DNA of 64,000 nt, from contig NC_088708.1 of the NCBI RefSeq assembly GCF_963576615.1, positions 65,574,672 through 65,638,671 of the forward strand, given 5' to 3'. Below the pieces are notes generated by a model, which searched no databases, had not been told where the DNA came from, and saw only the letters and a list, made by a program, of their open reading frames with translations. Of this stretch, positions 3,350 through 45,500 are shown piece by piece. The number at the start of each line of letters is the position of its first letter. Position 1 is the stretch's first letter. The translations under genes were made by a program, and so were the position numbers. This stretch comes from Watersipora subatra. Lineage: Eukaryota > Bryozoa > Gymnolaemata > Cheilostomatida > Watersiporidae.

Positions 3350-3779
3350 AAAGATGAATGTTCGCAAAATTTCAGTAGATTTTTTCAGAATGTACCAGTA
3401 TTTGTCTATCATTTGCATTTTGTTATGTTTTTGGTGATCTGACTGCCAGAGTGTTTCAAGATTAAAATTGACAAAACTTTATCTCGGTTAAAACGCTCAG
3501 CGAAAGCGGGATTATGACATCTTTAGTTGTAAAGAGCCCGAGAGAATAGAGACGTGTAGCGTTGTAACTTGAATTAATTAGCCTATTGCAATGATGGCAA
3601 TTAGTTACTTCATTCTGCACGCACATGTATTTTTCTTCCGATCATTTTAACTGCGATCAAGTTTCGTCGAATTTCAACATTAATGACAATTGATAAAAAA
3701 TGATGCAATGATTGCAAATGATAAAAAATACCAATATTTTCTGATAAAATCTACTAAGATTTTGTGTAATTTCATCTTT
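3350..3779. mobile_element. Non-autonomous inverted-repeat element (MITE), family A copy 1
   Basis: The two ends are imperfect inverted repeats: the left end reads AAAGATGAATGTTCGCAAAA and the reverse complement of the right end reads AAAGATGAAATTACACAAAA, with pairing continuing well inward (AGTAGATTTT..TCAGAA, and TTTCAAGATTAAAATTGACA against its partner). No transposase frame is present. A second copy lies at about 54890-55317. I could not identify a clear target duplication, so the ends are approximate and the superfamily is open. The rest of the 3163-4015 stretch shows nothing I recognise. Confidence 0.7.
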
Positions 3780-4015: not shown

Positions 4016-4436
4016 ATGCTCAGCAGGCTCCTTGGTTCTATCAAAATTACTGATACTAAGCCAGGCATCAAAAAGAAGTCTCCTTGGACCGATGCTCATA
4101 ACAAGACATCTCTACTTGATGGAACCAACGAGACAGTAGCCACAAAAACATCAGCGAATGCTGCCACCAATAAATTCTCTACACCGTCGGCTGGCAGCGA
4201 TTTAACTACTCAATCAGTCAAAGCTGACTCTAGCAGCAAGTGCAAGTTACTGACTTCTTTGGAAAGCAGCCAGGTCAAGAATCAGGATGTTCTGAAGACT
4301 CAGGATAGTGTGCATTCTACATCGCGTACTAGGAAAGCGTGCCGAAACCCCAATCCTAGTCTGGATAGCATGAGTTCTGACAATACCAATACAAATGGCG
4401 CTGCTAGAGGGGTGTGTGGCAAGGGTGGCTATGGCT
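4016..4436 (+). CDS. Candidate 5' coding exon, unrecognised, possibly N-terminal part of the MYSM1-like gene
   Basis: An ATG at 4016 opens a 147-codon frame rich in Ser, Thr, Asn and Lys, low in hydrophobic residues and without a domain I recognise. A good donor (GGG|GTGTGT) after codon 140 would end the exon at about 4436. A pyrimidine-rich acceptor at 4498 starts a stretch that continues in the same phase (Asp-Lys-Asp-Arg-Arg..), and another acceptor near 4581 offers a further segment before the confident exon at 5151. The strand, spacing and low-complexity composition fit a disordered N-terminal region of the gene that follows. The joins between 4436 and 5151 are weak, however, and this could be a separate small gene or chance. 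Some frames in 4520-4720 also look coding-like but conflict with each other. Confidence 0.35.
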
Positions 4437-5150: not shown

Positions 5151-8100
5151 AGGCCGAGGAAACGGAAGACCACAGCAAAGTATATTGGCGGCACCACATA
5201 TGAGGTGAGTTTCGTGGTTCTACTGAGTATTATATACAACGCTGTAGAATTTCATATTCTAATTAGTTAATAGAATAAAGTTGAGTGATGCAGATATTAA
5301 GAGATATGTTGAGATTTGCCCTTGCGTACAGATTGCTAGATTCTGAATAGTGTGACAGGTCAGATATATGGGCTTTTGGTGAAGCTTTACATTTAACTTG
5401 AGCTGACAGATTATAACATGAGTTGACATTGCTTGGCGGGTTGCCAGGTTGTGACACCTCGCTCAAAATGTCGTATTAGGTAGCTGCAGAAGCTCTACCG
5501 GTTGCTGGCGCAGTCGTCCATTAGCTGTGTGCATTTTTTCCTAATATTATGAAGACTGTTATTTACTGCTTGTAGCATGGCTCTGATGAGGAGATCCCTG
5601 CCCCACCTGTAAAAACATCTCGGACTAGTACTTCTAAAGGTACAACTCTAGACAGCTTCGCCCTGATGGCATGCGCTGAGTTCGCCAAGTTTGAGATGGT
5701 GAGTTTTGAATTCGGCGTCTGAGACTATCGTATATAAGCCATAAGCGCGACAAACCTTTTTAGACTGGAGGTGGGATGCTGTATTTATGAGTGATACAGA
5801 AGTCTTTCTATACTGAGTCACTAATTAGACACTAAACAAATAATATCTATGGATGCAGTGCCTTTGATGCCTCTGATTTGTCAAGATAGTTCATTTGCTT
5901 CTCCAGTGTAGCACCAACCTTGATTCTATTATCTTAAATGATATCATATGCATTTACATGCAGTCTATTAAACCTAAGGCTCACATCTTAAATAAACATG
6001 TGTATAAACGCTTGTAAAAAGATTGTATTTTAAGCAGGGATTTCCATTTCAGTAACCTGTTATGCGGGATAAGTGATATCGGTTTATCTCGTACTGCTGT
6101 CTAGGCTTTTATAGGTCGAGTATTGTCCCTGCGCGCTCTACGAACAGAGTGATTCAGCGAGCCAACCCCTTGTTAGTCACTGCTAGTACTAGTATCTATG
6201 TCTCTTTGCTGAGGTAAAAGCTGAAAGACTATTTTATGTGGTAGAGTAATGTTCAGCTCTTGAAGTCGTGACACTGCTGCCCTTGCTACAGCTTATAAAT
6301 GCAAAACGCTGTTTTTCGTACCAAGAAGTTTACTGCTCTTTGAATTGTGAAACTCTCCCGTATCATACTTTATGTTATTGTTATTACTATTCTTTTAAAT
6401 ATCTACTGTTTGACATTAAGTGCTTAGTTTATTGTAAATGTTATGCGATTGAATTTGAAAATTTTAATGCTAAGATGATACAGTGATGATAGCAAGATGC
6501 GTGGTGATAACGTGTTGGTGTTTTGCTTGATGTTCATGAATATTTGTCATCTCATGAACATTTTACCAAGTTAAAGTTTTTTATAGGATGAAACGCAGAA
6601 CAGCTTAATGTCAGAAGAAATCATATATTTCAATCCGCATGCCCTACTGTATAATGCGTATAATTTATAATATACACGATAGCCTTCAACTCCAGGGGCA
6701 GCCTAGACTTGTGTTAAATCACAGTCTTACGGCTAGTGTCACTCTGTAAAGACGTTTCTGTCCTCAAGCTATGAGCGCATTTTACTCCAGCTGCAACACT
6801 TGTGTCACTATTATCTCTTATCTTTAAGTGTTGTTGCTGTCTGATTAATGGCAACACTCGCATATATCTGTATGTCTAGGTGTGCCCTTATCAAGTAGTA
6901 TTGGAGTCAGCAGCAGCTGCTATCATGGACATACATGCACACCTCTGTAAGACGGAGGTGATTGGCTTGCTCGGTGGAAGGTATAGCTGTGAGCAGGATA
7001 CATTGACTGTGGTTAGAGCTGAGCCTTGCTGGTCCAAGAGCACTTCTCTTCACTGCGACATGGACCCAGGTAATACCGATGCGCGGTAACAGCGATATGC
7101 TCATATGATTCTGATGTGTTCCAGGCTGTAGTGTGCTACGGTTGGTTTTATTGCAGTGTCGCAGACTCAGGCTGGTGAAATTATCAGACAGGCAGGTTTG
7201 CAGGTGATAGGCTGGTACCACTCCCACCCCACTTTTGTTGCCAACCCTTCTCAACAGGGTGAGTCCTGCATGCGTCCCTCGCTACTCACCTTAAATTTAA
7301 TATACGAGGGGCGATCGTAAAGTTCCAGGAATTGTTTCAGTACACAAAAGCCGTTAATCGTAATTACCTAATTTAAACTGTCCCCTTCAAAGTAATCGCC
7401 TGAGCTTGCTATGCACTTGTCCCATTTGTGTTTCCACTGATCCATGCAATGCTGGAAATCACTTTCCGTGAGGCTTCGGAGTTGTCTCGTCACATTTTCT
7501 TGAATAGTTGGTATGTCGTCAAATCTTTCACCTTTCATTGTCAATTTGATTTTGGGGAATAGGTAGAAGTCACATGGTGCTAAATCAGGTGAATAAGGGG
7601 GATGGTTAAGCACAGTCGCCTTATTTTTTGCCAAATACTGACGTACCATCAATGAGGTAGGAGCCGGAGCATTGTCATGGTGTAGGTACCAGTCACCTGA
7701 GAGCCACAAATCTCGACGTTTCCTTCTGATACTGTCTCTAAGTCTTATCAGAATGTGTTTGTACACATGCTGATTCACAGTTTGACCATGTGGCAGAAAT
7801 TCAGAGTGTGCCACACCTCTAATGTCGAAAAATGTTATCAGCAGCATTTTTACATTTGAGCGAGACATTCTAGCTTTTTTAGGCCTAGGAGAGCCAGGGG
7901 ATTTCCATTGAGAACTTTGTGATTTGGTCTCTGGGTCATATCCATAGAGCCAACTTTCATCCCCAGTCACAACTTTTGAAATAAAGTCAGGATCTTGTGT
8001 TAAAGCATCTTTTAGTTCAATACAACAGCTAACTCTTTTTTCTTTTTGTCGTCAGTGAGCAGTTTGGTTACCATCTTTGCAGAGATCCTTCTCATGCCTA

Positions 8101-11100
8101 AATCTTCAGTGAGAATAAGATGACATGTACCATAAGAAAGCCCACTTTCTGCTGATATTTCTCGTATAGTCAATCGCCTATCTCCCATCACCTGCTGCCT
8201 CACAAGGTCTGTGGCAGTTGTGGTCCTTGAAGTTGCCGGTCTGCCCATGCGGTCATCATCTTTAGTACTTGTTCTTCCCTCTCTAAATCTTTTGTGCCAT
8301 TCATAACAGGCTGTTTTTTTAAGGGTAGAGTCTCCATAAGCTGTCCGTAACATTTGGAGTGTCTCAGCACCGGACTTTTCAAGTTTTACACAAAATTTTA
8401 CACAAACGCGTTGCTCTTCTACTTCATTCATTTTCGAAAAATTCGACGAACAATAAAAAGTGACCTTGACATTGCCTACTATAACTTCATTGCGGGTGCT
8501 CGGACAAGCGTAAAACTTTGGCTATGGGGAAATCCCGTGCTGCTTAGCAACATGGAACAATCAAAACAACTGCACAAGGTCTTATATTTGACTAGGAAAA
8601 CGATTCCGGGAACTTTATGATCACCCCTCGTATATTTTGTTACTTCTTGCATTCACGGTTTTTCGAGCTACAAAAGTTATTGAACAAAGAAATGAATTGT
8701 CTGTAAGTTCGTAACAACAATAGGTCATCATAAAGATTATGATTGAACATAGTTCTATGGGGTCACACTTGGTGGGAACTGCTAGTTTATGGGTTGACTG
8801 TCTGGTGTCTGCAGCTTAAGATAGACTAGATTATACTTGATAATAGATGAGTGTATACTTGATAATAAATGAGTACATACTTGATAATAGATGAGTATGT
8901 ACTTGATAATAGATAAGTATGTACTTGATAATAGATGAGTATATACTTGATAATAGATTAGTGTATACTTGATAATAGATGAGTATATACTTGATAATAG
9001 ATGAGTGTATACTTGATAATAGATAAGTATTTACTTGATAATAGATGAGTGTATACTTGATAATAGATGAGTATGTACTTGATAATAGATGAGTATATAC
9101 TAGATAATAGATGAGTGTTTACTTGATAATAGATGAGTATATACTTGATAATAGATTAGTGTATACTTGATAATAGATGAGTATATACTTGATAATAGAT
9201 GAGTGTATACTTGATAATAGATGAGTGTATACTTGATAATAGATGAGCGTATACTTGATAATAAATGAATACATACTTGATAATAGATGAGTATGTACTT
9301 GATAATAGATAAGTATGTACTTGATAATAGATGAGTATATACTTGATAATAGATTAGTGTATACTTGATAATAGATGAGTATATACTTGATAATAGATGA
9401 GTGTATACTTGATAATAGATGAGTGTATACTTGATAATAGATGAGCGTATACTTGATAATAGATTAGTATATACTTGATAATAGATGAGTATATACTTGA
9501 TAATAGATGAGTATGTACTTGATAATAGATAAGTATGTACTTGATAATAGATGAGTATATACTTGATAATAGATTAGTGTATACTTGATAATAGATGAGT
9601 ATATACTTGATAATAGATGAGTGTATACTTGATAATAGATGAGTGTATACTTGATAATAGATGAGCGTATACTTGATAATAGATTAGTATATACTTGATA
9701 ATAGATGAGTATATACTTGATAATAGATGAGTGTATACTTGATAATAGATAAGTATTTACTTGATAATAGATGAGTGTATACTTGATAATAGATGAGTAT
9801 GTACTTGATAATAGATGAGTATATACTAGATAATAGATGAGTGTATACTTGATAATAGATGAGTATATACTTGATAATAGATGAGTGTATACTTGATAAT
9901 AGATGAGTATATACTTGATAATAGATGAGTGTATACTTGATAATAGATGAGTATATACTTGATAATAGATGAGTATATACTTGATAATAGATGAGTATAT
10001 ACTTGATAATAAATGAGTATATACTTGATAATAGATGAGTATATACTAGATAATAGATGAGTATATACTTGATAATAGATGAGTGTATACTTGATAATAG
10101 ATGAGTATATACTTGATAATAGATTAGTATGTACTTGATAATAGATTAGTATATACTTGATAATAGATTAGTATATACTTGATAATAGATGAGTGTATAC
10201 TTGATAATAGATGAGTATATACTTGATAATAGATGAGTATATACTTGATAATAGATGAGTGTATAAATTATAATAAATTATTGGGAATAGTTTTATTACA
10301 GATATTGAGTCCCAAGGAACTTTTCAAAAATGGTTTTCACAAGGAGGTGATCATTTTCTCGGAGTGATACTGAGTCCATACAATAGAGCAAGCAAGTCCG
10401 TCAACTCAGAGATACGTTGTTTTACCACAGCCATTCCACCTCCCAACCACACCCTTAGCCACAGCTCATCTAGTAAGATCTTAGCGAGTGCTAGATTTAA
10501 TTTGATTGCTACACCGTCGTGGCGCTCTTGAAATTGTGTCAGATACTCAGCTATTTCAATTACACAGCTATGTCAGGTGCACAGCTTAGTTTTTTCAGAC
10601 TTGTGTGTTTGTGAAGGCCTGACTGCAAACACCTATGAAATACATAACGAAACAGCGCCTTCCATATCTGCCGTTATTACACGCGCAAGTGCTACTAAAT
10701 AGATTGACCAGTGTAATATATGGAGAATGTTATGTTTTTACTTAGCCAATGTGTTGTTAATGGTTAATTTGACAGTGTATAGCCACTACTCGCCACAGTT
10801 GTGTCGGTCAAAGAGAGGTGTTGGTCTTGTAATGGAGTTCATCAAACTCAGCTTGATGAACTCCATGACACGACTAACATATACTGCTCCTCAAACTCAG
10901 TTCGCTGAGCAGTATGCAATGTATGAATTTGTCTCACACTCGTTTTGATACTCTCTCTGAGCCACAAAGTGTCATCAGTGTCAACAGTTTTATCATTAGT
11001 GTATGAATATAATGTGTACTCGCTAATCTTGCTGCTTTCAGGGCTTCCTTTCAAGTTTGACTACAAGGTGCAGACATCTGATGACCACAATGAACTTGTA

Positions 11101-19859: not shown

Positions 19860-22800
19860 CTATATCCATTTCCGTGCATGGTTGTATATAAATGACTCTT
19901 TTATAGGCTTCACTGGATGGTAAGTCCCTAAAAAATACAACGATTGAAGAAAATTAACATTCCAAATTTCTTTAAAAGAATCAAAGCTATTTTACTATTC
20001 CATAGACTTAGATCACTAACTCAATGTTCTAAGCAGAAAAACATCAATGAAAGTTGTCACAGAACAGGAGCTAAAGCGATAACCTCAGAATCGCTTTCTA
20101 CTCGGTGATTCCTCCACATTAGCCAACTGGCACCTTATTGGCACCTAACCTTACCTGGGCCTGGTATAGTCTTATCTGCCGCCATGTCATGCCACCTGCT
20201 ACTACTTGATACAAAAACTGAAGATGACATGTAGTGCTTGCTGGGCCCTTCATAGTCTCTGAGCTCATACGCACCGGGTCCGGGGGCTACTGGAGGCTCA
20301 GGTAAAGGCATGGCAGGGGCTGACAAACATAGATAGTGTTTTTTTCTACAAATACAGACATTCACAATAGAATACATCACAGGCGATGCTTGTCAGCAAG
20401 TGTTGAAATAGATTAGCCAACAATTTAATTGCAGCTTTTTTCTTACACAGATAAAATATTTATTTTTGTTTTGTTAGCTATTGGAAATCATACTTAAAAT
20501 TTGTATGGGTCATAAATATTTTGTCATTGTATGTGGTTTGTAATGGCGACCCTATATAAAGACTAAATATTATGAAATTATTTCTTTTCAAGCACCACAC
20601 ACACTTTTAACAACTTGAACTTTTAAATAGAATTATGAAAAAACATGGTAGTTACTATGAGTTCATTCCGAGTCAAGGCCATTAAGTTACACTATCATAA
20701 CAACATTATAAATAATTTATCAAAATTAATTTTTATGCAACCATGAGCTTTTGTAGTTTTAGACAAGCAATAAATTATTTTTACAAAATATCTACAGCTA
20801 ACTGACCTTCACCTTGTCTAGTATAAGAATAGAATGTTGAAGTGTACTCACGGAAATAGTGTTTTGTTTGCTGGGTCTATTTCTTCATTAGGTTTGTACG
20901 TGGCAGGTCCTGGATTCTATAATAACATACTAAGGTAATTGCTCGATTTTACCTAGCGTTGCAAAATAGAGTGCACAGTGAAATATATATCTTTACTAGA
21001 ATTATTCATCCAAAATTGAATTGTAAGTGGAGTGTTTGAGAATGATAACAATTCGTGCAACCATATAAGTCTAACAAACATCATGCCCATATATGAGCTT
21101 TTTCAAAAAGTAAATTGGGTGAAAATAATTAAAGAAAAATTACCAAATATTAGATTATACCCTATAATTGTATTTATATTACAAGTAGTTGCACTTTAGT
21201 CTGTAAGAAGTTATGTTCATTGTATAGACAACTCTGATTTAGCACAAATTGACTATGCAGTAGTCATTTTTTGTATTTATCAGAATTACTTACCAAATTT
21301 TTTCGAAAGAAATTTCTATCTCCTGATGACTTAAAGCTTGAATCATAACTTTTAGCGTCAGGGTTCACTTTCGTATGCTTGACCTCATATTGACCTACAT
21401 TCAAACCCACCAATTGAGTTACACTAACACAATATATTCTTATTTACGGATCAATGCAAGAGAAGATAATTACAAACTCTCTCAAGCAATGAAAACATAT
21501 AATGCAGCTGTTTGTAGGTAGAAAAGAACTTGGTGCAAATTTTGTCTCCCAGAGATGCGAGACAACATTTGAGCAATGTTTTGCCTGTTTGCAGCAAAAC
21601 CTAACTTACCAGGTGCCGGGTTGCCTCTTTTGTCTGTTAAACAAGATTCTCGTTTAGTTTGTGATTTAAAGACAGATGCCGCAGTAACGTTATTCACTTT
21701 TCCTTTTGGGATAATGGCAGGCTAAAAATTAAATATGAAAGCAATTAGTTTGGCGGCACATGAAAACTTATTTATAATTTAACAAGTAGTTTGCAGGGCT
21801 TCGTGAGTTGTAGCAATAACCAGTGCCATAGTAGAACATCACTAAGTCACATCATTTCAATAAAATATGAAAACTTAAATGCATGTATAAGTTCATTTTC
21901 AAAATAATGTCCTTTGTTTTATAATTGTCATTGACTTGAAACTCACTTTAATACTACTCATTCAACAAAAAGATCCTGCTCTATCATTTACAAAAGTGCA
22001 TGTTTAATTGTTATTAAGACCTTTTAAAACATTTTTATAAAAAATTACTAATATTTTAAAACTGAAATAACAAAAAATAAGAATAACTTTATTTATTGTG
22101 CTTGATAATCCAAGTGAAGGAGTAAAGAGCAAAATAAAAATAAAAAGTAGACACTATAAATTTTGAAGTAAAGAGGTCAAACTCAACTTTTTTCGCAGTT
22201 AGTTAGTAAACACCCTTGATTGCAAAGCTGTAAACTGCTTTAAACAACTCATACTGAGTTTCTTATGCAATCATTGTACAATATAATAATCCACTTACAT
22301 TGTATGTAGCAGGAGAAGGTAGCACTTCCTGTTTGTCATGAGGCTGTGCAATTGGCTGGTGAAAGTTTCCTGTATTTGCTTTGTTAAAGTCAGATTTTTT
22401 TTTAAGGAGATTGGGTAAAGCATACTTTCCAGGACCCGGCCCACTTGATATCTGTGGCTTAGATACCCTGCGGTCCTTAGATACAAAGCCTCCATAGCCC
22501 TTTTTGCTATATGATTCTGGTTTGCCTTTATACGTTATGTGACCAACATAAGAACCAGGGCCTGGGTTCTCATTCTAAAATACATAGAAATTTTTAGATA
22601 TGTCAAGTGATCACTTTGCATAATCACCGTGCTGCTCGTAAATGAATAGGTGGCAGATGTGATACAGATTGGTCAAATGGTATGTGATGCATACAATGCT
22701 GTAATCAAATTTGCCACTGGTATAGTTTTGCTTACCAAGACATTTTCAGAGAATCTTTTGGACTTTGCCAGAAATCCTTTAGTGTCAGAGTTGTCAATGA

Positions 22801-25800
22801 CAACAGTTTGATACTTTGTAGGAATGGTAGAGTTAGCTGCTACTATGCCATGACCTGCAAACCATATTATTCTTAATAGCATTGTAATAATAAAATATTT
22901 ATTATTACTTTCATGGCATGTACATTTTTAAATTAACAATCGCAATAATCACTTTTATTGTTTTCGTAAATATATTCATACTAAACAAAAAGGCCATAGT
23001 ATGCTACATAGACCTATTAACTATACTAGATCGGGCAATCTAACGCATCACAGCTCAGCATTGGGTCCACATTCTTTGCGACGCAACGTCATGGCTTTGT
23101 TCACTTAACCTAGTCCAGCCCATAATTCTAAGTAGGAAGCCATGGAGAGTGGAGCAAATACCAGCACTGGAAAGGATTCAAAGGTAAATTTTGCTCCAAT
23201 TGTTTTTAAGTGTGGTTGTGAGAGGTATCTAGATATATAGAGCAAGGAATCTTGTGGATTTTTTTTAGATATGCATACAATTAATGGTTTTTCCAAAATG
23301 TTTTTTTAAAAGTTCATTGCTGGCACTACAATTTGAAAAATTGTTTCACGCAAAGAGGTGCTAAGCACGCAGTAGATGAAGTGTTGCCCATTCATAAAAT
23401 TTTTCATCACCATGACAGGTAGACATAGGCTAGTAAATCAGTATGGTTATGGCTGTGCTATATTTAAGAAAGTAGCTAAACTCAGCAAGAAAGATTTTTA
23501 CTTTATGTTCTCATAAGAATGCAATCATTTACTGATTATTTTGCAGGACAAGAGGAGTAAAAATTTTTGCTGTACATTTTGGTGTTCTAATACTCCAGCA
23601 AAGGTCAGTAAACTTAGTTTCCACATTTTTCCATCAGAGGAAAACACCTAGAAAGACGTGACAAGTGGATATACGCTGGGAAATGGATGCCTTCTAAATA
23701 CTCTGTGCTCTGCAGTGATCATTTTACATAGGACTCCTATCGTAGACCTCCAGGTATGAAGATGGCTGGCATACTAAAGCCTACTGCTGTACCAAGGGTA
23801 TTTTATTCTCTGCCAAAATATTTACAACCGACTCAACCAAAGCATAGACAACTGCTATGCCGACCAGCACCATCTACATCATCTACACCGGACCAAGATG
23901 AGCCAGCCATGGAACCTTCACTTTGCTCTGAAAAGCCAACAGCCGCCAAGTAATCTGAAGAGGTCATTCCCGACCCTCTACATGAGCACCCACGAGGTGG
24001 ACCAAAGATCGCACCAGAGTTACGTGTACCGAAACTTTTAAAGAAGGTCAACACGCTTTACCACAAGTTTCAAAGGCTTCAAAACACCGCATGTATTCAG
24101 AAGAATTTGCTTGCATCACTGCAAAAAAATAAAATCTAAAGCGCCAAGTTTGACTAAATTATTATAGATGGTTGTCTGCAAGAGATAGTAGAAAATGATG
24201 CTAAAAACAAAAATACAAAGACCAAAGAGGTGCTACTATTCTCCAAAAGCATATGCTTATCTCAGAACGTTTTTCAAACTTCCTAATGGTCACGAAGACT
24301 CTTTCATTAGTGTTACAAAGCAGTTTGCATCAGAAATTTTCATGCCCTAATTTTCATGTTAAAACTATCACCTCCAGATATGCAAGGATTTAAATTCATT
24401 TAACAAGAGTACTACCGTCAATACCCGCGTATAAGACGCATTTTCGTTTTTAATTAAGAAGCCGACCTAAAGACCCAGGTGCATCTTATCCATGGATAAT
24501 TTTATTATAAAATTATGCATTTATCATTTTATCGAAAAGTTATTATAAAAATTTCAATCTTACAATATTTATTCTTGTGGTCAATATTGGCAGATCATAG
24601 GCATGTCAGCTTTCTTCATGTTGCCGCCCTTGGTAAAAGTATGCCGCTCTTCGTGAAATTATTCAACGCATGTCAAATGATTTCACAAAATTTTATATGA
24701 AACACTACAGTTTCTATAAAAATTAATCAAAACTTATGACTAAAATTAGGATGCGTCCTATTCACAGTTACACAGTTTTCCATCATTTTTTGGGGTCAAA
24801 GATCCACTGCCTCCTATACATGGTATCGTCCTATACGCGGGTGTTTACGGTAATCTCAGATCAAGGCTCAGATGACTGGTTGTCCTTAGTCATGTCCAGC
24901 CCTTCACAATATGTCTAGAAAAGTGTACCATATATCGCTTATTTTCTACGATTTTTCTGATGCTGTTTGCATAACACCCAAGACCCAACATTTATATTCA
25001 TGGCAGACTGTGAGCAGTGTACCATTTACCAGTGTGTATGCATTTGAGATCAGTTTGTACACCTAGCTATCTGACATGTTAGCCCATAACATAGGGCAAC
25101 ATTGATAATTTTGCAATATTTTTGGATTAGATAAATATAAATTTTACTCGCACTTAAATATGAAATATTCAACTTTATGTTTGCAATTTTGTAGAGTAGA
25201 AAATGCATAATGTATAAGTTTTGTATCTAAAATTTGAAACAAATATCCTGTGTACTTTAGTAGTTATGTCAAATTACATGTAGCAACAAAAATATCTCTT
25301 CATTCTTTCGATATAAACAATGAGGACTCGCTTGCCTGACGAGGTGAAAGTGAACTAAGAAATGACGTTGCATCACAAAAAATGTGGTTATTTATGTGGG
25401 ACACCTTGGCTTTGTATTGCCCAACTAGTATAGTTAATAGGTCTGTGGTATGCTATTACAAAAATTATTATAAAAAAAAGTTTTAAATTTTTTTCTGAAG
25501 TCGGACCAGACTAAACAAGCAAAAACTATTCATTAGTTTTTAAATGTTCTAAACTAAAAATATTCAGGTGTAATTAAAAAAGCACCATTATTGTAGCATT
25601 TTTATTACATTATGTTAGCTTTTATGGTGATTTAAGTATAAGCTTTCAGTGAATGATGAAAACCATGAAGTCACAATAGTATTCAGCTGATAGTAATATT
25701 GATATTATTAAAAATTTAAAAATTTAAGCTCCAACAAAATATTTAGTATAAATTAAGTAACATTAAAATCAAATTAAATCATAGGAAAACCGTGTCTGAG

Positions 25801-42513: not shown

Positions 42514-45500
42514 AGCTATTTCGGCAAACTTGTGGCAATAATGGCAGTAAAACTTTCAGACTTGATTAAAACCTATGAAGACGTAGAGAAGAGTGGTGAC
42601 TTTTCTGGGTGGTGTGACAAGTTAGAGCTTGTAGCTGAGCTGCAGAATATTACGGAGTTGAAATCTTTTGTGCCACTCTTTCTGTCTGGACCAGCATTCG
42701 CCATTTATAAACAACTGTCAGCCGACACTAAAAAGGTCTCTTTTCGTAACCTTTTCTGAAACTACAGGCAAATCACCATCTCGCTTCCAGTTGTACTGAT
42801 CATCTTCTGCATTGTTTACTCTAAGACCCAACACACGAGTATCTGATAGTGTCAATGGGTCTTTTGCCACAAGTCCAAACCTTAGTAAGTGAGCTCTAAC
42901 AACATCAGCTGGAACCGCCTCGTTAACCCAAATGTCATCAATGTAGTGATCAGTATGGACAACTACAAAGAAGGATATACAAAGAAGGAGAAACTGTTGA
43001 TGTCTACCTGGCAGATTTGCGTAGGCTAGTAGCTCTGATTGGCCAAATAATACCAGAACCCTTGTTGAAGTGTGCTTTTGTGGCTGGATTACCAATTGAT
43101 GTAGCTACCCAGATTAAATCCATTTCAGCAGTTAAAAACCTTTCGTTGTCGGAGTTGGCCACAAGAGCAAGAATGATTATGTCTAGCAATGTTGGAGCAC
43201 AAGGAGTCTGTGCAATGGGGTATGTAGGCTCAAAACCTGCTGGACAAATTTGTTCAATTTGTAATGGCAGAGGTCATGGAGCCCACCAGTGTCCATCCAA
43301 GGTTGTAAAGAGTGCAAAAAGGCTAATAAAGTGTTACAACTGTCAAGAGCTTGGCAATCACATAGCTAGGAATTGCCCCAATGCTAAGGGAAACGAGAAT
43401 GGGGAAGTGTCTGCACCGCATACTCTCCCCGCTACAAGTCACTGAACAAAGAGGTGCTACCATTTATTAATATATATGTGAACAAAGTATCTGCAAGAGC
43501 TCTTGTAGATACTGGTTGCGAACAGACTGTCGTTTTAGATGATTTTTGTGTTAAATTGGGTAAAAGGCCTAGCGGTCCTGTTCGAATTGTCAGCATGTTA
43601 AATGGTAAAACTACTGAGTGTAAGGGTGAAACTGTGTTAGAAGTCAATGTCACAGGAAATGAAGAGCTTCCTCTGCAGTGCTTGATTGCGCCAGCACTAG
43701 TAGGTGGAGCACAAGTGATATTGAGAATAGATGCTATTGCTAAACTCGGTGGAGTTAATGTTGATGTTCACAATGGTGTTAAGTTTGGTGGTGAGTTGCC
43801 AGTGATAAGTGTTGGCACAAGACACCAGAGTAGTTTAGAGATTGATGATAAAGGTTTCATAGCATGGTTTGATGGTAGTGCATGATTTGTCAAGTGGAAC
43901 GATGATGAACTGATTCTACAAAATCATTGCTCTGAATACAAGATAAATGATGATGACAGAAAAGAGTTTGATGAAGCGCAACGCTGGATAGATGATGAAT
44001 GGCTGGAGTTATATGATAGCACAGTCTACGGTCATGTAGAGGGGATAATTCCATTGATGGCTGCAAAACAACCAAACAAGCTCAATAAGATTTGCCCAGT
44101 TATGGATTACCGTGAACTCAACAACTATATTCACAATAATCCAGGTGTTGAGACTGCAATCTGCCAAGAAAAACTTCGAAATTGGAGGTTAGGGGATGCA
44201 AAGAATGTCTATTAGATTTGAAGAAGGCTTATCTACAAGTTCATATAGAGCCCAGTCTGAAAAGATTCCAGGCAGTGAGGTACAAAGGTAAAACGTATGT
44301 AATGACACGCATGGGATTTGGTTTGAATGTTGCTCCCAAGATCATGTCCAAGATCATAGATAAAGTGCTGTTATTAGATGAACAGATTTGCAATGGAACT
44401 GATCACTACATTGATGACATTTGGGTTAACGAGGAGGTGGTTCAAGCTGATGTTGTTAGAGCTCACTTACTAAGGTTTGGACTTGTGGCAAAGACCCATT
44501 GACACTATCAGATACTCGTGTGTTGGGTCTTAGAGTAAACAATGCAGAAGATGATCAGTACAACTGGAAGCGAGATGGTGATTTGCCTGTAGTTTTAGAA
44601 AAGGTTACGAAAAGAGACCTTTTTCCATTTGTGGCAAACTAGTTGTACATTACCCAGTTGCTGGATAGTTAAGAGTTGCTTGTAACTATGTAAAGAGATT
44701 GACCAATGACATAGACTGGTCTGAAACAGTTTCTAGTTCTTTGAAATCTTTGTTGGGTGAAATATTTCAAAGAGTACAAGAGCAAGACCCAGTGAGAGGC
44801 AAGTGGGATGTCAAGAAGACCTCTCAGTGTACTGTGTGGTGTGACGCCAGCAACTTGGCTCTCGGAGTGTCCCTGGAGGTAGATGGTTACACTGTTGAGG
44901 ATGCAGCATGGCTACGTAAAGAGGATGATGGTGCTCATATAAATGTTGCTGAGCTAGAAGCTGCATTGAAAGGAATCAATATAGCGCTAAAGTGGAAAAT
45001 GACAAATGTGCAAGTGATCACAGATTCAGCTACCGTTTATGGGTGGATAAATTCAGTGATAGAAGATACCAAAAGGCCTAAGGTTACTGGCCTCAGTGAG
45101 TTGATCATTCGACGTAGACTTGGAATTATTGGTCAGCTGATTGATGAATACAGGTTAACACTAATGATCAAACTTGTTCCATCAGGTGAGAACAAGTCGG
45201 ATGTCCTAACCAGAGTACCAAAGAAATGGCTACAAGTTGTTGCATGCTCAGGGGTTGTACTTTCTAACACAGATGAGATAGAAGACGTAAAAAAAGCTCA
45301 TCAAGACCACCACTTTGGTGTCAACAAAACCCTGTACTTGGCACAGAAAAAGCTTGGACGAACAGTCAAGAAAGACATAGTTGAGCAAGTAGTGAAAACT
45401 TGTCTTATGTGTAACAGTGTAGATCCTCATCCAATTAAATGGGATCATGGTCAGCTAAATGTAACAAATGTATGGGAGTGCCTTGCATCAGATATTACTC

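Follow-up and report, generated by a model that had tools for sequence, protein, structure and literature searches.

The window analysed here is a 64,000-nt stretch of the genome of the bryozoan Watersipora subatra. An exon with sperm-tail PG-rich repeats lies on its reverse strand at 22266–22574; it matches PDB chain 9e5c_0r with an E value of 4.7e-7 and scores 17.5 bits against Pfam SHIPPO, under the cut-off of 20. Antisense to this exon, a transposon copy occupies 23007–25447, plausibly in an intron of STPG1, which is a candidate assignment for the host gene. The copy is directly flanked by GTATGCTA at 22999–23006 and again at 25448–25455, identical at 8 of 8 positions, so the perfect 8-bp duplication reported by the initial annotation is real. 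Its terminal inverted repeats lie at 23007–23034 (forward strand) and 25420–25447 (reverse strand). These ends had been given as 15 nt long; they measure 28 nt at 89% identity. The internal repeat noted around GCAACGTCAT is present as a 40-nt pair of subterminal inverted repeats with 85% identity (23067–23106, forward; 25348–25387, reverse), the left arm of which starts 32 bp inside the terminal repeat. Thus, the window copy has the 8-bp duplication and both the terminal and the subterminal inverted repeats of the P superfamily.

The coding part of the copy is decayed. We compared it with L061, a full-length sibling whose gene model has introns predicted from GT-AG signals. The exon 1 remnant, from the ATG to the predicted GT splice donor, is at 23142–23183, and the exon 2 remnant is at 23547–24288, both on the forward strand. 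Exon 2 is identical to L061 at 629 of 719 aligned bases. Its reading frame is shifted by one base and interrupted by three in-frame stops, and it has lost 38 bp in one deletion besides showing smaller indels. The remnant of the THAP zinc finger spans 23568–23803 (forward), from the first cysteines to the AVPRVF motif, and its counterpart in L061 is intact (THAP, 1.4e-17). The CCTFWC and VLCSDHF residues by which the finger had been recognised are present on one strand, but they are in two different reading frames. No family was recovered when two short stop-free pieces of exon 2, of 29 and 73 residues, were scanned against Pfam. Exon 2 ends where ~2.07 kb has been deleted internally; the join is an ATG common to both sides (24286–24288), where position ~1337–1343 of the L063 element is fused to position 3409. 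The RNase-H-like and GTP-binding region is deleted from the window copy, and only a broken remnant of the N-terminal THAP domain is left. A nested inverted-repeat element with ends CTACCGTCAATACCCGCGTATAAGACG and 26-nt arms (88%) is found at 24412–24850, flanked by TA at 24410–24411 and 24851–24852. The unfilled sequence is seen in L061, and, judged by this comparison, the nested element is an insertion later than the P element. In summary, 23007–25447 is an internally deleted, mutated and non-autonomous copy of a P-superfamily transposon, which is now dead.

The siblings of this copy retain what it has lost. The long open frame of L061 (551 residues scanned) gives THAP at 1.4e-17 (64.6 bits, with a cut-off of 23.9), PF12017 at 4.7e-18, PF21787 at 2.8e-29 and PF21788 at 7.5e-30; PF21789 is found in the next exon at 1.1e-12, and THAP9_C in the last exon at 0.011, under its cut-off. 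PF21787, PF21788 and PF21789, all of which exceed their cut-offs, represent an RNase-H-like catalytic domain with an inserted GTP-binding domain. The predicted domain set of L061 is therefore THAP, helix-turn-helix, RNase-H-like and GTP-binding. By phmmer, both catalytic parts of L061 align with 6p5a, the Drosophila P transposase, with aspartates aligned in 'lvidsm' and 'itcdga' and a glutamate in 'qdhietlf'. We take these acids to correspond to D230, D303 and E531 of the fly protein. By alignment, L061 has the three catalytic acidic residues of the P superfamily, which in fly P transposase are described in a review (PMC7776569).

Two other origins of the window copy were considered. It is known that hAT elements likewise make 8-bp duplications, so a hAT-superfamily element that acquired a THAP-like zinc finger would share this feature. 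However, when the three open frames of L061 were scanned against Pfam with E values up to 0.1, no hAT transposase or dimerisation domain came up, whereas four P-type models and THAP are far above their cut-offs and phmmer recovers 6p5a. hAT membership was rejected for L061 on these hits, and we regard this origin as extremely improbable. THAP domains are also common in host genes, and a decayed host THAP gene with no transposon at all might be proposed on that ground. This reading, which we find just as hard to credit, was rejected because of the inverted ends, the perfect duplication, the many copies with the same ends and the siblings at unrelated sites. Of two observations that the initial annotation itself had named as fatal to its proposal, the first, ends repeated nowhere else with THAP transposases between them, is contradicted by the longer siblings L061–L064, in which the same ends flank a THAP-plus-RNase-H-like transposase, the very pattern it had named as support. 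The second was an intact orthologous THAP gene here in relatives; in W. subatra, the exon in question is broken. The proposal of a P-superfamily relic with a THAP domain is thus borne out by the inverted ends, the duplication and the domain-bearing siblings together.

The family is abundant in the W. subatra assembly (783,720,542 bases, 239 contigs). The first 114 bases of the element found a match in all 40 places scored, which were drawn from 403 first-look candidates. The 23-base element end, with up to 2 mismatches, has 930 + 931 matches in the genome, and the reversed-pattern control has 0. A genome search with PF21787, which represents the RNase H domain of P-type elements, gave at least 175 matches, several of them inside family ends. 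The siblings examined (L061–L064, with end pieces L067–L069) are ~4.2 kb long, and all four are flanked by perfect 8-bp duplications (ATAAAGTG, ACCATCCC, GCTCATGC and TTTAGGAT). L061, L062 and L064 are mutually 99.3–99.6% identical over 4120–4152 aligned bases; therefore, the spread of the family is recent. L063 is ~90% identical to these three and carries frame breaks in exon 2, so not every full-length copy is intact. We drew 20 further end pairs from 100 of the 23-base end matches. Perfect 8-bp duplications flank 16 of them; the other four comprise one pair with 1 mismatch, one with 9 bp, one with none and one composite with 1 mismatch. It is shown by these sites that the family inserts with 8-bp target duplications. 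The left end of the full-length L061 (G000:C1:46292851) adjoins a minisatellite of the CTACCTAAACAACCTGACTTCC type. A second P-like group was also noticed, with open frames of ~612 residues that match only positions 74–137 of PF21787 (G000:C11:38705985, C5:29890178, C9:9589871 and others). Its scores are near-identical at several places, and it is perhaps a different, recently active family.

Besides full-length elements, the genome contains several kinds of derivative. The break of the window deletion is also present in L012, a copy at another site; the otherwise rearranged L066 carries a join that resembles it, with 2 mismatches over the pattern. Because the same break occurs in at least one copy elsewhere, the deleted form was probably mobilised in trans by the transposase of its siblings. 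A second break, from 1381 to about 3200, is common to L022, L026, L027 and L029. In a third class, about 500 bp of the right end, inverted, replaces the left subterminal region. Members of this chimeric-end class were seen in part (L007, L016, L023, L025) or in full (L070–L073), and in the latter the two ends match over 511–520 bp at 90–94%. The chimeric junction, with up to 3 mismatches, occurs 63 + 69 = 132 times in the genome, and 0 times in the control. The target duplications are perfect and 8 bp long in L071, L072 and L073, and 9 bp long in L070. The idea that these derivatives move with two identical right ends was given up, because a left-type terminal segment and the 45-bp spacer are retained in all four copies seen in full.

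The spacing between terminal and subterminal repeats differs between the two ends in most copies. Among the 29 end loci L002–L030 (L013 and L014 being the left ends of L062 and L061), the left spacer is 45 bp in 23; of the rest, one is 44 bp, three are 31–32 bp and two are unreadable. The left spacer of L064 is 60 bp via a small duplication. The right spacer is 33 bp in L061, L062, L064 and L070–L073. In the 20 end pairs, a 45/33 arrangement was found by script in 16 and by eye in two more, in which the motif is degraded; the other two have one shortened right spacer and one composite structure. This count must be read with the chimeric-type left spacer in mind, which was recognised by eye in 19 of the 20 pairs: the sampled pairs appear to come mostly from the chimeric-end lineage, are therefore not independent, and may, from their shared structure, descend from one founder. 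Some copies speak against a strict 45/33 rule. The spacers of the window copy are 32/32 and the left spacer of L063 is 31 bp, and both copies have perfect duplications; left spacers of 31–32 bp are found in L004, L007 and L063.

Short traces of the element were found by searching the whole genome for two 15-base tips facing each other over 0–30 bases. There are 217 such head-to-head sites, against 0 for the reversed control, and they are apparently excision scars. Duplications were scored at 40 of the 217: 14 are perfect, 11 have one mismatch, and at the remaining 15, which include L153 with its 9-bp duplication, there are at least two mismatches or no duplication. The fillers between the tips vary by site and look partly copied from the tip sequence. 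In flies, complex repair insertions depend on DNA polymerase theta, as reported in PMC2895639. For the tally of tip bases kept, 50 of the 217 sites were scored, of which 44 are distinct, giving 88 ends. In these ends, 15 bases are kept in 3, 16 in 5, 17 in 4, 18 in 4, 19 in 12, 20 in 21, 21 in 18, 22 in 18, 23 in 2 and 27 in 1. That is, 20–22 bases are kept in 57 of the 88 and more than 22 in only 3, including the one with 27. Genome-wide, 158 + 155 scar ends have at least 20 tip bases (opposite arm 14 bases) and 9 + 3 have at least 23 (opposite arm 11 bases), counts that are slightly generous relative to the 217-site search on account of the looser opposite arms. Six of the ends with at least 23 bases come from three palindromes, in which the 23rd base is assignable to either side. 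Elsewhere, a scar with the perfect duplication CTTGCCAC (L039, G000:C1:57787575-57787619) lies inside another family copy, apparently a nested insertion that was later excised.

The number of tip bases left behind should report on where the second strand is cut. The fly P enzyme leaves a 17-nt stagger between its strand cuts (PMC7776569, PMC2895639), which the review calls unusually long (PMC7776569). As a control, the fly P{wa} junctions in tables 1–3 of PMC2895639 were counted by the same rule as the bryozoan scars; these come from Rad51-deficient flies, with polymerase-theta mutants as a further source for tables 2 and 3. At both ends, 12 or more bases are kept in 77 of the 111 isolates typed there. 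These were counted once per table row, with repeats between tables kept separate, which gave 44 rows and 88 ends. Beyond base 17, the count relies on an assumed sequence of the fly tip. The fly ends keep 12 bases in 2 cases, 13 in 8, 15 in 3, 16 in 34, 17 in 31 and 18 in 10, with none above. Thus, most keep 16–17, the drop falls after 17, and the known 17-nt cut is recovered; 10 of the 41 ends with at least 17 bases run one chance base further. In the bryozoan scars, 39 of 60 ends extend past 20 bases, 21 of 39 past 21 and 3 of 21 past 22. The scar tally does not fit a Drosophila-type stagger of 17 nt, as its drop falls after 22, and from this sharp drop we infer a stagger of 20–22 nt. The stagger of the family transposase is probably in this range and most likely 22 nt; the tally is best explained by a cut at 22 followed by some trimming. 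A stagger of 20 or 21 nt is possible if T and A strongly predominate in the fillers, and the tally alone does not separate 20, 21 and 22, since it varies with the rate of chance matches among filler bases.

Two other readings of the scars have to be weighed. The enzyme might cut at the fly distance of 17 nt inside the element, with the extra 3–5 tip bases added by repair synthesis from a sister or homologous copy. This draws on the observation that the fly gap is often filled in part by synthesis before end joining (PMC2895639), but such synthesis predicts a broad tail past 17, whereas 76 of the 88 ends keep more than 17 bases and the number falls sharply between 22 and 23. We consider it unlikely. 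The short head-to-head pairs might also be tiny palindromic elements that themselves transpose: 8-bp duplications flank many of them (14 of 40 perfect) as they would an inserted element, and a few cores recur, as only 44 of the 50 scored are distinct. However, the fillers vary between sites and seem patched from the tips, like fly repair junctions, and the recurring cores L138–L140 resemble one another in their flanks and probably represent copies of one event or of one host repeat. This explanation appears less probable still. Excision scars from an enzyme with a stagger of 20–22 nt are the reading that we prefer.

Based on these results, we propose the following history. The full-length siblings encode a predicted transposase with THAP, helix-turn-helix and RNase-H-like domains and an inserted GTP-binding domain. 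An ancestor of the window copy lost ~2.07 kb of coding sequence, and the deleted form was then probably moved in trans by the siblings' transposase. The window copy afterwards acquired its frameshift and stops and took in the TA-flanked insert. On excision and end joining, about 20–22 bases of each tip would be left behind, the strand opposite the terminal cut being severed 20–22 nt, most likely 22 nt, inside the element, in comparison with 17 nt in the fly. We hold it as very likely that these parts are true together: a dead non-autonomous P-superfamily copy, a deleted form moved in trans and a family stagger of 20–22 nt. A bolder claim reads from more than 200 scars a stagger of about 22 nt and joins it to a derivative with a rebuilt left subterminal region, the 45/33 spacing kept and at least 132 copies; we lean toward it with reasonable, lesser confidence.

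The family shares many features with P of Drosophila melanogaster (6p5a / 6pe2), namely 8-bp duplications, terminal and subterminal inverted repeats, deleted copies, and THAP and RNase-H-like domains with an inserted GTP-binding domain, which are here predicted from sequence. It differs in being ~4.2 kb long rather than 2.9 kb, in unrelated tip sequences, in a subterminal repeat of 40 nt rather than 11, and in a proposed stagger of 20–22 rather than 17 nt. The spacings of the two ends differ by 12 bp in both: 9 and 21 bp in the fly, according to the review PMC7776569, and 45 and 33 bp in most bryozoan copies. This match may be a coincidence, as the fly spacer runs to the transposase-binding site and the bryozoan one to the subterminal repeat. 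With zebrafish Pdre2 and THAP9, as described in PMC10983969, the family has in common 8-bp duplications, a THAP9-type transposase and internally deleted copies, and the 13-bp tip CATACCTGTCAAC given there for Pdre2 resembles the bryozoan CATAGACCTATTAAC. The subterminal repeats of Pdre2 are reported as 12 bp, ~400 bp from the tip (PMC7776569), whereas those of the bryozoan are 40 bp and start 60–73 bp from the tip. Coding elements beside amplified non-coding derivatives that share their ends have been described for the P elements and P-MITEs of Anopheles gambiae (PMC1562414), one of the derivatives being a composite whose ends stem from two subfamilies. In contrast to this composite, the bryozoan lineage reuses the right end of its own family and gains inverted ends of ~510 bp. 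Galileo, a P-superfamily transposon of Drosophila, is also reported to have long terminal inverted repeats (PMC3688188, PMC4168063), as seen here in L070–L073, but the bryozoan long repeats look derived from a short-repeat parent in the same genome.

The P superfamily, its deletion derivatives and its presence outside insects, already described for zebrafish and Ciona (PMC7776569, PMC10983969), are known. In the literature searched, no report on transposons of W. subatra was found, and no bryozoan work was among the matches listed for bryozoans and transposons. The main text of a bryozoan genome paper with repeat analysis (PMC13326412) is without the terms 'P element' and 'DNA transposon'. As far as these literature searches reach, this family and its host look new; the chimeric-end lineage is new as far as searched, and within the same search the longer stagger looks new. 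The window alone is ordinary, as its element is a single dead copy lying antisense to a gene with sperm-tail repeats. The near-identical full-length copies and the 217 apparent scars, however, form a natural record of cutting and host repair in a bryozoan, by which it becomes testable outside insects how general the 17-nt stagger and the 12-bp end asymmetry are. If our reading is true, members of the superfamily would differ in cut distance, with the 12-bp asymmetry of the ends tending to persist.

Other repeats were noted in the window. A tandem array with a 27-bp period runs from 212 to about 3000 (102 overlapping 300-nt copies). Inverted ends that begin AATATACGAGGGGCGATC, at 7299–7348 and 8587–8636, are 82% complementary and 1238 nt apart, and look like those of another transposon. 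An inverted repeat in three pieces, at 42730–42954 and 44398–44624, is 97–99% identical and apparently recent.
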